From assembly GCF_011516735.1 (NCBI RefSeq), contig NZ_WOSX01000004.1, positions 62,001-126,000 on the forward strand: 64,000 bases of DNA, written 5' to 3'. This stretch comes from Acetobacter fallax (GTDB lineage: Bacteria; Pseudomonadota; Alphaproteobacteria; Acetobacterales; Acetobacteraceae). Below are positions 4,775 to 60,955 of this stretch, piece after piece. The position numbers were made by a program, and so were the translations under genes. Under the pieces are notes generated by a model. That model was not told where the DNA came from and ran no database searches. It was given only the letters and a program-made list of their open reading frames with translations. Numbering within the stretch: position 1 is the first letter of the stretch; each line of letters opens with the position of its first letter.

Positions 4775-5697
4775 CCGGATCTGACAACACATCTTCGGGC
4801 GAGAGATCTGACGGGAACGGTCGCGGCAAACGCGGATTGTTTTCGCTGTTTGGCCGGAAGCGTGACCAGGGATTGCGGCATTCGATTGCGGCGCTGGTTC
4901 AGGAAGCGGCGGATGCAGGGGATTCGGGCGATGAGACGCCGGAACTCGATCGTCAGGAACGGGCGCTGATTGCGAATGTTCTGCGGCTGCGTGAGACGAG
5001 CGCGGATGATGTGATGATTCCGCGGGCCGATATTATCGCGATGTCGGCGGATATCAGTCTGGATGACGCTCTGGCGATGATGCGGCGGGAGAATCATTCC
5101 CGGATGCCGGTGTATCGCGGGCAGCTCGATGACATTGTGGGCATGATCCATGTGAAGGATCTGATTGCCTATCTGGGCACGAGTGAGGCCTTCACGCTTG
5201 ATCCTCTGCTGCGACAGCCGCTGATGATTGCGCCGCAGATGCCGGTGCTGGATCTGCTGCTGATGATGCGTCAGCGGCGGATGCATATGGCTCTGGTGAT
5301 TGACGAATATGGCGGCATCGACGGGCTGGTGACGATCGAGGATCTGGTTGAGACGATTGTCGGTGATATTTCGGACGAGCATGATGAGCCGACGACGGCG
5401 ATGATCGTGGAGCGTCCGGACGGGTCTTACGACATTGATGCGCGGTGTCCGGTGGAGAAGTTCGAGCATGTGCTCGGGCCGATCCTGACGGAGTCTGAGC
5501 GTGAGTCGGAGATTGAGACCATTGGGGGGCTTGTGTTCCGGCTGGCGGGGCATGTTCCGACGCGGGGTGAGGTGTTTACCCATGAGGGAGGGTACGTGTT
5601 CCGGGTTCTGGACTCTGACGCACGGCATATTCGCCGTGTACGGGTGCGGAAGACGGTGGTGGAGACTGCCGGCGAGGAGGATTCCGGCGGGAAGTAG
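4756..5697 (+). CDS. CorC/HlyC-type CBS-domain protein
   Basis: Soluble hemolysin-C/CorC family protein. Residues about 84-205 form a pair of CBS domains ([17 protein letters not shown], then [13 protein letters not shown] and [20 protein letters not shown]), and residues about 215-300 form the transporter-associated CorC_HlyC domain ([20 protein letters not shown]). The family has been linked to magnesium/cobalt efflux and adenine-nucleotide sensing; the role here is inferred. No membrane segment is visible, so this is the short soluble type. The start at 4756 overlaps ybeY; an in-frame ATG at 4771 is an alternative. In many proteobacteria the apolipoprotein N-acyltransferase gene lnt follows; here it does not. 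Confidence 0.9.
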
Positions 5698-13113: not shown

Positions 13114-13776
13114 TCAGTAGAACTGAAGGCCGCTGATTTCCATTTCCGGGTCCAGATAATAAGGCACGTAGAAGGTTGGTGTGGCTGAGGTGGTGGTTGC
13201 GTTGATGCCTGTCGGCGGCGTGGCGGGTCTGAGGCCGCTGGCGGCGAGGCAGGTGTAGAGGGTGCTGCGAAGTTTGCCATCTGCGAGGCCGGTCTGGCGG
13301 GTGTTACGGAACAGGTCCTCTGCATAAGGTTTGCAGGCCGCGGGTGTGTGATTGAGTTTGTCCGTGATCTGTTTCTCGCGGTAGGTGGCGACCTGGGCGT
13401 CGGTCAGCCAGACGCGGAAGTAATCGGGCGAGGCCGGATCGAGCCAGAGGGCGCGCCAGCTTGTCGGGCCACCTTTGAGGCGTGTGACGGCGACGCCTTC
13501 TTCCTTTGAGCCATCGGCGCGTGTGAGTGTGCCGTGGCAGGCCATGACCTGGTAATGAGACCCGAACAGCGAGCCCCGGATGGTGCCGTTGCTGAATGAG
13601 GCGGCCTGGCTTGCGGGGGCGGTGCCGGTGACGTCAGGCAGGGGTGACGGGGCGTTTGCGATCCCGGTGACGGCGCTGGTGATATCCGGTTCAGCGCAAT
13701 AGTTTTTCAGGGGATCGACGGTATAGGAACAGCCGGTGACGAGGAGGGCCACGAGGGCCGTGAGGCGGGATTTCAT
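13114..13776 (-). CDS. Putative outer-membrane or periplasmic lipoprotein, function unknown
   Basis: A 220-residue protein with a lipoprotein signal: MKSRLTALVALLVTGC, the LVTGC lipobox placing the modified cysteine at residue 16. The mature part contains several further cysteines (in NYCAEPD, MACHGTL, ACKPYAED and YTCLAASGL) that could form disulfides in the periplasm. I do not recognise a domain. It lies 46 bases upstream of the Old Yellow Enzyme gene on the same strand and may be co-transcribed, but nothing links the two functionally. Confidence 0.7.
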   Translation of the reverse strand: MKSRLTALVALLVTGCSYTVDPLKNYCAEPDITSAVTGIANAPSPLPDVTGTAPASQAASFSNGTIRGSLFGSHYQVMACHGTLTRADGSKEEGVAVTRLKGGPTSWRALWLDPASPDYFRVWLTDAQVATYREKQITDKLNHTPAACKPYAEDLFRNTRQTGLADGKLRSTLYTCLAASGLRPATPPTGINATTTSATPTFYVPYYLDPEMEISGLQFY

Positions 13777-14027
13777 GGGTCAGGCTCACTGCGTGTGTTT
13801 GCCCACCACCGGTTCCGGCCGGAAAGCGCCTGGATCGGAAGGGCGACGAACGGTTATTGATTGTGCTTCGCATGGGATGGTGTGTGCCGCAATGCCCTTG
13901 ATCAATTCGGGGCTGCGTGGAGGGGCGCCGGGTGGCGCGGCTCGACGTTCGGGGTGGCATCCTGTAACGAGTCGCGCCCTGAAGGTGTGTTGTGTGCTGA
14001 GGTCAGGGTTTTGAGGTGGGGCGTTTC

Positions 14028-15369: not shown

Positions 15370-15426
15370 GGGGGCTCCGGGTGAACCCGGAAGGGAGCGC
15401 GGCTCCCTTCACCCTGATCTGTTGAG
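15370..15426. repeat. Partial family-B element (two perfect hairpins) downstream of gyrB
   Basis: Contains two adjacent perfect inverted repeats: CCGGGT-GA-ACCCGG and AAGGGAGC-GCG-GCTCCCTT, followed by TTCACCCTGATCTGTTGA. The same order and flanking words occur in the family-B copies near 38.0 kb and 60.7 kb, where the second stem reads AGGGGTC-GCG-GACCCCT. Both arms are changed together here, so the stem is conserved rather than the letters. The outer ends of the family are missing. The position, about 40 bases past the gyrB stop, suits a transcription terminator for gyrB. Confidence 0.65.
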
Positions 15427-37842: not shown

Positions 37843-38014
37843 TCCGGGCAGACCGGGGTGGCGGGGTCTGCGGACTCTGCGGGGTTCTGGCTGTGTCCGG
37901 CGCTCTCACTCACAGCTCAGGCTTCACAGCTTCTGATATTACGAAAATACTGAGGCGAAGACTGAGTGTTTCATGCCAGTCCGGATCAGGGCTGACCGAC
38001 GTGATGAGACGCAA

Positions 38015-38143
38015 CGGGCTCTGCCCGGACCTGGAAAGGGTCGGAGACCCCTTCACCCCTGTCTGTTTGTCAATAAGGTCTGTGACCCTTGGTGGTTCCA
38101 GGGCAAAGCCCTGAGACCGGACCAGCACTTAACGATAACAGAT
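38015..38143 (+). repeat. Family-B element, copy B2 (left end missing)
   Basis: Begins CGGGCTCTGCCCGGACC and ends CACTTAACGATAACAGA. Internal palindromes correspond one by one with copy B1: GGGTC-GGA-GACCC, a GTGACCC word, and CAGGGCAAAGCCCTG. The outer left segment present in B1 and B3 is absent. It lies between two convergent genes, the ABC ATPase and the M16 protease. Confidence 0.75.
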
Positions 38144-38163
38144 CGGATTGCGGAGGGGTGTCA

Positions 38164-54300: not shown

Positions 54301-54429
54301 GGTAGTTCTCCGGCATTTTGCGGGGCGAGTTTTCTGAGCACCACGATGAGGAGGAAATCTTAATCAGAGTTTATGACCGGTCTTATTTCTCATTATTGTG
54401 ATACTTTTTGATACAGATCAGGATTGCTC

Positions 54430-54620
54430 TGATTCTGTTCGCGTTAAGTACCGGTACCTTCTCAGGGCTCTGCCCTGGAACCCGCCAAAAATCGCAGATC
54501 TGTGGAAACCGGCTTGTTTATCAACAGTTTGGGATGAAAGGGGGCTGCGACCCCTTCCGGGTTCGGCCGGAACATGGTCTTCCGCTGATCCTTTGAAAAA
54601 TCACAGAGCGTGAACAGAGC
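54430..54620 (-). repeat. Family-B element, copy B3 (inverted relative to B1)
   Basis: Read on the minus strand it runs from GGCTCTGTTCACG through TGTGATTTTTCAAAGG, GAACCCGGAAGGGGTCGCAG, CTGTTGATAAACAAGC, GGTTCCAGGGCAGAGCCCTG to CGGTACTTAACGCGAACAGA, following copy B1 nearly throughout. About ten bases of the outer left end are missing. ATTGCTC flanks it on both sides in the same direction, a possible remnant of a target duplication. It fills the gap upstream of the first aminotransferase; the rest of 54301-54806 shows no gene. Confidence 0.75.
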
Positions 54621-54671
54621 CATTGCTCCTGTTCTTTTGTGATTCGAACCGGTGTTTCAGCGTATGGATGA

Positions 54672-60635: not shown

Positions 60636-60657
60636 CGACATTGTGGCCTTCGGAAAG

Positions 60658-60855
60658 GCTCTGTTGTCGTTAAGTGTTGATCTGTGATTTTTCAAAGGGT
60701 TAGAAAAAGATCGGGCTCTGCCCGAACCCGGAAGGGGTCGCGGACCCCTTCACCCCAATCTGTTGATAAATAAGCATATTTCCAAAGGTTTGTGACCTTT
60801 GGTCAGTTCCAGGGCAAAGCCCTGGGAAGGAACCAACACTTAATGACAACAGAGC
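60658..60855 (+). repeat. Family-B element, copy B1 (complete)
   Basis: 198 bases. Left end GCTCTGTTGTCGTTAAGTG... and right end ...CACTTAATGACAACAGAGC form 22-bp inverted repeats with one mismatch. Between them lie GGGCTCTGCCC, AGGGGTC-GCG-GACCCCT, a CTGTTGATAAATAAGC linker, CCAAAGG-TTTGTGA-CCTTTGG and CCAGGGC-AAA-GCCCTGG, a row of short palindromes. The 11 bases TTCGGAAAGGC occur as direct repeats just outside each end (60649-60659 and 60857-60867), as a target-site duplication would. Confidence 0.8.
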
Positions 60856-60955
60856 GTTCGGAAAGGCCTGATCTCCGACGGATCAGGACAGAGTGTTGTT
60901 ACGCAACAGCCGGCTCCGGCTTTGTTTATAAGATTAGCAAAAGGAATTACCGGGA

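Follow-up and report, generated by a model that had tools for sequence, protein, structure and literature searches.

The stretch of Acetobacter fallax DNA analyzed here, which we refer to as the window, comprises 64,000 nucleotides of a source genome assembled into 162 contigs (4.21 Mb). It contains B1, a gene-less, palindrome-rich block bounded by inverted ends and short direct repeats.

60657..60856, plus strand: MITE copy B1, 200 bp; borders derived from the comparison of 51 distinct genome copies
60657..60679, plus strand: left terminal inverted repeat, 23 bp, GGCTCTGTTGTCGTTAAGTGTTG
60834..60856, minus strand: right terminal inverted repeat, 23 bp; differs from the left repeat at positions 1 and 13
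60649..60656, plus strand: left target duplication TTCGGAAA, from copy comparison
60857..60864, plus strand: right target duplication TTCGGAAA, from copy comparison

A preliminary description of the locus, drawn from the letters alone, had placed inverted ends of 22 bp with one mismatch at 60658-60855. These are present, with the true end lying one base further out on each side. It had also reported an 11-bp direct repeat at the borders; while this sequence, TTCGGAAAGGC, indeed occurs at both, the target duplication comprises only 8 bp, TTCGGAAA. The longer repeat is apparent because the left end starts with GGC and the right flank by chance continues with GGC, copy comparison identifying this triplet as element start on the left and as flank on the right. 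The block encodes no transposase, as had been stated, the longest open reading frame wholly within B1 amounting to 49 amino acids. The row of internal palindromes is likewise real: folding of 60640-60890 gave z-scores of -8.6 (DNA) and -9.0 (RNA), and none of 200 shuffles folded as stably, with the long paired ends adding to this stability.

Two relatives of B1 had been noted within the window, and both proved genuine.

54431..54621, minus strand: second full but degenerate copy, 191 bp, inverted, with both ends; 78% over 174 bp to B1
54423-54430 (ATTGCTCT) and 54622-54629 (ATTGCTCC): flanks of this second copy, equal at seven of eight positions; a non-consensus site
38015..38145, plus strand: truncated copy spanning element positions 56-200, 76%; left end missing, right end degenerate

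A short piece of hairpin chain also lies at 15372-15425 of the window (81% to B), and no end matched there.

Searching the own genome with the element by BLAST, with 40 of 270 candidates scored, returned at least 78 matches, of which 14 span the full length at 91-100%. The end pattern, at up to three mismatches, matched 244 times as opposed to twice for the reversed control, and the B-type pattern at one mismatch matched 171 times. These end counts suggest a copy number of roughly 85-120, the 244 matches also taking in ends of a sister family (family A, below) and of an insertion sequence (IS). Element BLAST, end search and alignment of copies agreed that the outer ends are common to copies elsewhere in the genome, in line with what had been anticipated for a mobile element.

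For flank analysis, we drew on best BLAST hits and best end matches to collect 51 distinct copies with both ends at no more than three mismatches and 170-240 bp apart; because both ends were required, truncated and decayed copies are absent from this set. The copies are 188-222 bp long, 42 of the 51 falling at 198-201 or 221-222 bp. Their 8-bp flanks are identical in 11 of 51 cases (permutation mean 4.1, p = 0.0002, right flanks permuted) and agree at seven or more of the eight positions in 22 (permutation mean 12.7, p = 0.0002), such agreement being absent in the other 29. The target consensus is the palindrome TTTSSAAA. Given its strength, flanks agree fairly often by chance—those of mismatched pairs are identical in 7.7% of cases—and the variable central two positions therefore tell most: at flank positions 4 and 5, the two sides carry the same base in 67% and 71% of copies, where 42% and 44% would be expected. 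Positions just beyond the eight flank bases showed no excess agreement among the 51 copies. The alignment of copies with their flanks, as previously proposed, thus revealed conserved ends and a target duplication, albeit one of 8 bp and in a large fraction of copies only. A convincing empty site of the window copy did not emerge from sister genomes: its right flank matched one of the 48 other genomes of the genus, at 65% (up to eight candidates scored per genome).

We determined how widely the element is distributed. End matches at up to two mismatches occur in 9 of 49 genus genomes, with 205 here, five and three in two others and one each in six, single matches being a level that the reversed control also gave in several genomes. 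At one mismatch, 14 of 397 genomes family-wide have an end match. Element-like matches beyond the own genome were confined to three Gluconacetobacter genomes and one genome of another genus. A plasmid search with the element found nothing, and an end-pattern search of viral contigs hit 20, and in none of these did another end face the first one within three mismatches. Rare in relatives and present in about a hundred copies here, the element therefore looks like the product of a burst in one species, under one-genome-per-species sampling.

Which transposase could mobilize such an element? The family-wide end search pointed to Gluconacetobacter dulcium LMG 1728, where six contigs end inside an IS (three left and three right ends). 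The three left ends begin GGCTCTGTTATCGTTAAGTGTTG, and the longest includes a start codon followed by the zinc-binding N-terminus of a transposase of IS1/IS1595 type; the three right ends begin GGCTCTGTTGTCGTTAGGTGTTG, and translation of one yielded an IS1595-type transposase C-terminus. Profile searches returned NF050000 (IS1/IS1595 zinc domain) at 2.4e-11, above cut-off, and NF033547 (IS1595 transposase) at 1e-9, below cut-off for a 60-aa piece, while Pfam PF12760 reached 13.4 of the required 25.4 bits on the N-terminus and so remained below cut-off. In tblastn, the same N-terminus retrieved plasmid genes annotated as IS1595 family. The six 8-bp flanks would form three duplications, TTTCCAAA/TTTGGAAA, TTTGGAAA/TTTCCAAA and TTCGGAAA/TTTCCGAA, a pairing that rests on matching 8-mers, without assembled joins. 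Judging from the shared terminal repeat, the N- and C-terminal pieces would belong to one IS. Of 24 positions, its left end shares 22 with the MITE end, and its fragments lie in targets like those of the MITE.

In the own genome, too, contigs break off inside this IS, again in such targets: contig C33 closes and C32 opens with identical 100-bp left ends, and C66 closes with a right end of 128 bp, DNA identities to G. dulcium being 84% (left) and 90% (right). Several MITE copies have ends identical to these over the outer 23-25 bp; in the window copy, the left end departs from the IS ends on C33, C32 and C66 at one of 23 positions (position 17, A for G). On C66 the order is MITE, 8 bp, MITE, 8 bp, IS, and on C32 it is IS, 8 bp, MITE. 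An IS with the same ends, such as the preliminary description had proposed to look for, is thus present in both the same genome and G. dulcium, the IS being known from fragments. Together with the shared outer ends and an 8-bp duplication above permutation, this supports the earlier reading of the B1 block as a non-autonomous transposon, that is, a MITE.

Neither the own-genome nor the G. dulcium assembly contains a complete transposase gene or the catalytic middle of the IS, and the middle is not among the 40 smallest contigs of the own genome. Such gaps are frequent for repeated elements in draft assemblies. PF12762 found nothing in G. dulcium and, in the own genome, only a degenerate remnant below cut-off (C33:3629-3883), which belongs to a separate decayed IS1595 element (77% identical to the right end from G. 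dulcium along 165 bp).

We extended the comparison to relatives of the IS, considering the best 80 of 150 loci that encode relatives of the G. dulcium piece in species genomes. Within these best 80, relatives beyond Gluconacetobacter are 36-49% identical and nearly all proteobacterial. An inverted repeat was detectable around the gene at 31 loci and starts with GGC on both sides in 27 of the 31 (for example GGCTATGTCACCGTTAAATGTGGAA); the other four (L219, L226, L247, L284), in which no GGC end was found on both sides, were left out of the end consensus. The 54 ends from the 27 loci gave the consensus GGCTATGTCACCGTTAATTGTTGA, which agrees with the MITE end at 19 of 24 positions, a score that none of 100,000 shuffles reached. 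Identical 8-bp flanks surround 18 of these 27 loci.

Several other candidates were considered as helpers. IS6, ISL3 and other IS1595 elements of the host genus were dropped because the transposase is absent or matching ends were not found around the gene. IS1595 elements in other Gluconacetobacter genomes lack a pair of matching ends, and a fragmented G. takamatsuzukensis locus, whose transposase piece is 91% identical, likewise shows no matching ends. Separately, a matching end was seen at locus L193 (G177:C33, around position 4787) beside a reading frame that, read by eye, starts MKRSRFSEDQI and looks like an IS3-type orfA; this is probably one IS abutting a MITE end.

Inspecting the sites of insertion revealed a marked preference. 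At least one flank is a hairpin chain of family A or B in 39 of 52 insertions, and both flanks are in 20, as compared to 17 of 1000 random 100-bp window pieces that match a chain. (The underlying table has 53 rows for 52 insertions, the window copy—itself without a chain flank—being entered twice.) In 34 of the 39, the chain flank ends within two bases of one site, namely TTTCCAAA in B or TTTGCAAA in family A. B1 carries this site as well.

60779..60786, plus strand: TTTCCAAA, the site in the chain where other copies insert, since insertion borders fall there

Several insertions show exactly eight duplicated chain positions, such as 99-106 on both sides, and in another Gluconacetobacter genome TTTCCAAA borders a 197-bp copy on either side. 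With insertions at one chain site, uninterrupted chains thus act as related empty sites; direct empty-site matches (16 of 53) take in self-matches within tandem arrays and are not our main argument. Because the MITE interior is itself a hairpin chain, copies lie in earlier chains and in tandem arrays, and because that chain includes the favored target, each copy brings a new landing site. It also follows from most insertions lying in a chain that flanks are often repeated among copies.

Family A, with the end GGCTCTGTTAGCGTTATACCAGAGG, is a sister element whose hairpin chain is of the same type; B insertions frequently split it.

L172:10240-10467; L168:13355-13450 and 13652-13782; L171:11923-12140; window 37848-37943: family A

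The decayed IS1595 remnant on C33 (L091:1315-1914) has its end fused to that of a family A element, close to the GTTA common to the terminal repeats, and this fusion may record the origin of family A. At L166 (C66:9500-10723), L003/L008 (C37) and L027 (C32), MITE and IS copies spaced exactly 8 bp apart form tandem arrays, as if each insertion had reused the previous duplication. A third palindromic repeat also serves as a landing site, with TTTTGAAA duplicated in two copies.

L012 and L022 flanks; L034 downstream of 1504: third palindromic repeat, GAGGCTTTTGAAACAGCCTC

We consider the element a MITE of the IS1595 family, with an IS1595-type IS bearing the same ends as its likely helper and with landing in its own kind of chain, and assign this reading a probability of about 0.93.

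The preliminary description had further raised the possibility that the hairpins are used at the level of RNA or single-stranded DNA. The chain of B1 comprises five of them.

60688..60708, plus strand: palindrome 1, TTTTTCAAA/TTAGAAAAA, AT-rich; right arm kept in only part of the aligned copies (alignment by eye)
60712..60724, plus strand: hairpin 2, CGGGC/GCCCG; 97.4% of cells paired across 54 sequences
60731..60751, plus strand: hairpin 3, GAAGGGGTC/GACCCCTTC; 91.6% of cells paired; two compensated versions
60782..60802, plus strand: hairpin 4, CCAAAGG/CCTTTGG; 98.1% of cells paired
60810..60824, plus strand: hairpin 5, CAGGGC/GCCCTG; 98.8% of cells paired

The 54 sequences are the 51 copies, the second window copy, one from Gluconacetobacter and one from another genome of the host genus. 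In the 221/222-bp class (L170, L158, L037, L044, L053, L176), hairpin 3 is lengthened by an extra stem of about 22-24 bp (GTCACGCGAAGGCGTG...).

Selection might keep this chain for its own sake, as RNA or single-stranded DNA acting as a terminator, a processed RNA or a transposition aid, with the mobile ends being only its vehicle. Consistent with this, 94.1% of cells in the named structure pair as compared to 92.0% in shuffles, and cells changed on both sides number 77 as compared to 33.6, a count as high in none of 500 shuffles. Chain order is kept in the Gluconacetobacter copy at 74% identity, and the minus strand of the element contains two terminator-like matches that overlap. However, 50 of the 77 double changes concern just two pairs within hairpin 3, where, given its two versions, few events may have been counted many times, and 25 of the other 27 fall in the terminal repeats. 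Pairs with a double change number nine, a figure also reached by 29 of 500 shuffles; the RNAalifold covariation term is small; the window contains no match to an Rfam family; and arm-to-arm correction can also keep palindromes. Pairing is therefore retained, whereas the double changes stem mostly from two versions of one hairpin, and an RNA or single-strand role stands as possible. That selection for such a role accounts for the chain appears rather unlikely to us; as parts of an IS1595-family MITE, the hairpins are probably payload and landing site.

A subset of junctions invites another view of how insertion proceeds. By a simple flank rule, 12 of the 51 lack a duplication and have seemingly lost the target hairpin: six read CCGGCAAA-element-TTTGCAAA or its mirror image, four more carry another TTTSSAAA-like sequence on the far side, and two do not. 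The near border of this class mostly lies where the family A hairpin GGCGAGCC would end, and in 11 chain flanks the border is family A position 140, with the eight bases GGCGAGCC of the reference copy missing. Nor do the 12 copies form one lineage, as eight are nearer to a copy outside the class, two tie and two are nearer inside by at most 0.005. A further 17 of the 51 copies fall in neither junction class, 11 with weaker flank agreement and six with none.

These features would fit an element of the same kind of which some insertions occur by stem-loop replacement, the transposase swapping the target hairpin for the element and leaving no 8-bp duplication. IS1272, a member of another IS family than IS1595, offers a parallel. 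For that element, stem-loop-replacing transposition has been proposed (PMC5678879), and the ten junctions with a TTTSSAAA-like far side, the missing GGCGAGCC bases and the multiple lineages all speak for a comparable event here. Yet the same product results from ordinary insertion at TTTGCAAA followed by deletion between the two AAAGGC repeats that flank the family A hairpin, and the sequences compared include no before-and-after pair. Such a deletion explains the no-duplication class most simply, and we regard replacement as unlikely. Similarly doubtful is the more far-reaching proposal of a self-landing MITE whose own chain is the preferred docking site of the transposase, with an IS1595-type transposase that acts on folded targets and sometimes replaces a stem-loop.

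In principle, a hairpin chain with many copies and strong folding could also be a REP/BIME-type repeat, dispersed at the single-strand level by a Y1 (RAYT) transposase. Such repeats are palindromes of 20-40 bp linked to a RAYT transposase, an anatomy unlike that of B1. Long inverted ends, 8-bp duplications and the ends of an IS1595-type IS are not REP features, and the window again lacks an Rfam family match, so that this reading is already disfavored and strikes us as very improbable. Its chances next to nil, a MITE of another IS family, IS6 or ISL3—suggested by a resemblance of ends, as these also begin with GG and give 8-bp duplications—is already refuted as far as the assembly goes, with zero PF13610 matches in the own genome and with a single ISL3 element whose ends are GGTTCTTCCGCACTTTTCGTGATG and whose locus holds no MITE-type end at up to three mismatches.

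For the IS1595-family MITE, we envisage the following course. The transposase of the IS1595-type IS would bind the MITE ends, move the MITE and insert it with an 8-bp stagger. The favored target, as the copies show, lies next to one particular hairpin within a chain, and the interior of the MITE is itself such a chain; this self-supplied target may have helped the burst in this species. Hairpin-rich repeats of this bacterial family, otherwise anonymous palindromes, would thereby be explained as mobile and as carrying their own landing site, their driver most likely being an IS1595-type IS. The system lends itself to asking how a gene-less element reaches about a hundred copies in one species while being rare in the relatives sampled, and whether the shape of a target is recognized by a DDE transposase.

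One of the closest known systems is a MITE of ISHwa6 (IS1595 family) in Haloquadratum walsbyi, with 165 bp, seven copies, inverted repeats of 25 and direct repeats of 8 (PMC3852290). The two share IS1595-derived ends of about 25 bp, 8-bp duplications and the lack of a gene. Unlike B1, the ISHwa6 MITE resides in an archaeal host and in few copies, and the accessible part of PMC3852290 describes neither a hairpin-chain interior nor self-nesting. In the IS1595 family, 8-bp duplications are usual and an N-terminal zinc finger occurs in all groups but IS1016 (PMC8101967); ISApl4 has A/T-rich 8-bp repeats and the ends GGGGCTGTACTAGA (PMC12561309). The element resembles these ISs in its 8-bp duplications and in an end that follows the relatives' consensus at 19 of 24 positions; it differs in lacking a transposase and in having one defined palindrome, TTTSSAAA, as its target, for the most part within hairpin chains.

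Insertion sequences are known to target REP palindromes (PMC1525189), and insertion at fixed places in repetitive palindromes is common to them and the B element, which, unlike them, is built of the same kind of palindromes as its target. As with IS1272, up to 12 of 51 junctions here have lost the target hairpin and lack a duplication; unlike in the IS1272 proposal (PMC5678879), the usual duplication is present in 22 of 51, and simple deletion also explains the no-duplication class. The literature searched yielded no description of the B element or of any IS1595 MITE in acetic acid bacteria, and no bacterial IS1595 MITE that consists of its own target palindromes. Given that IS1595 MITEs are known and that self-nesting was not found in this literature, we file the element as an IS1595-family MITE, with self-nesting as its new feature.
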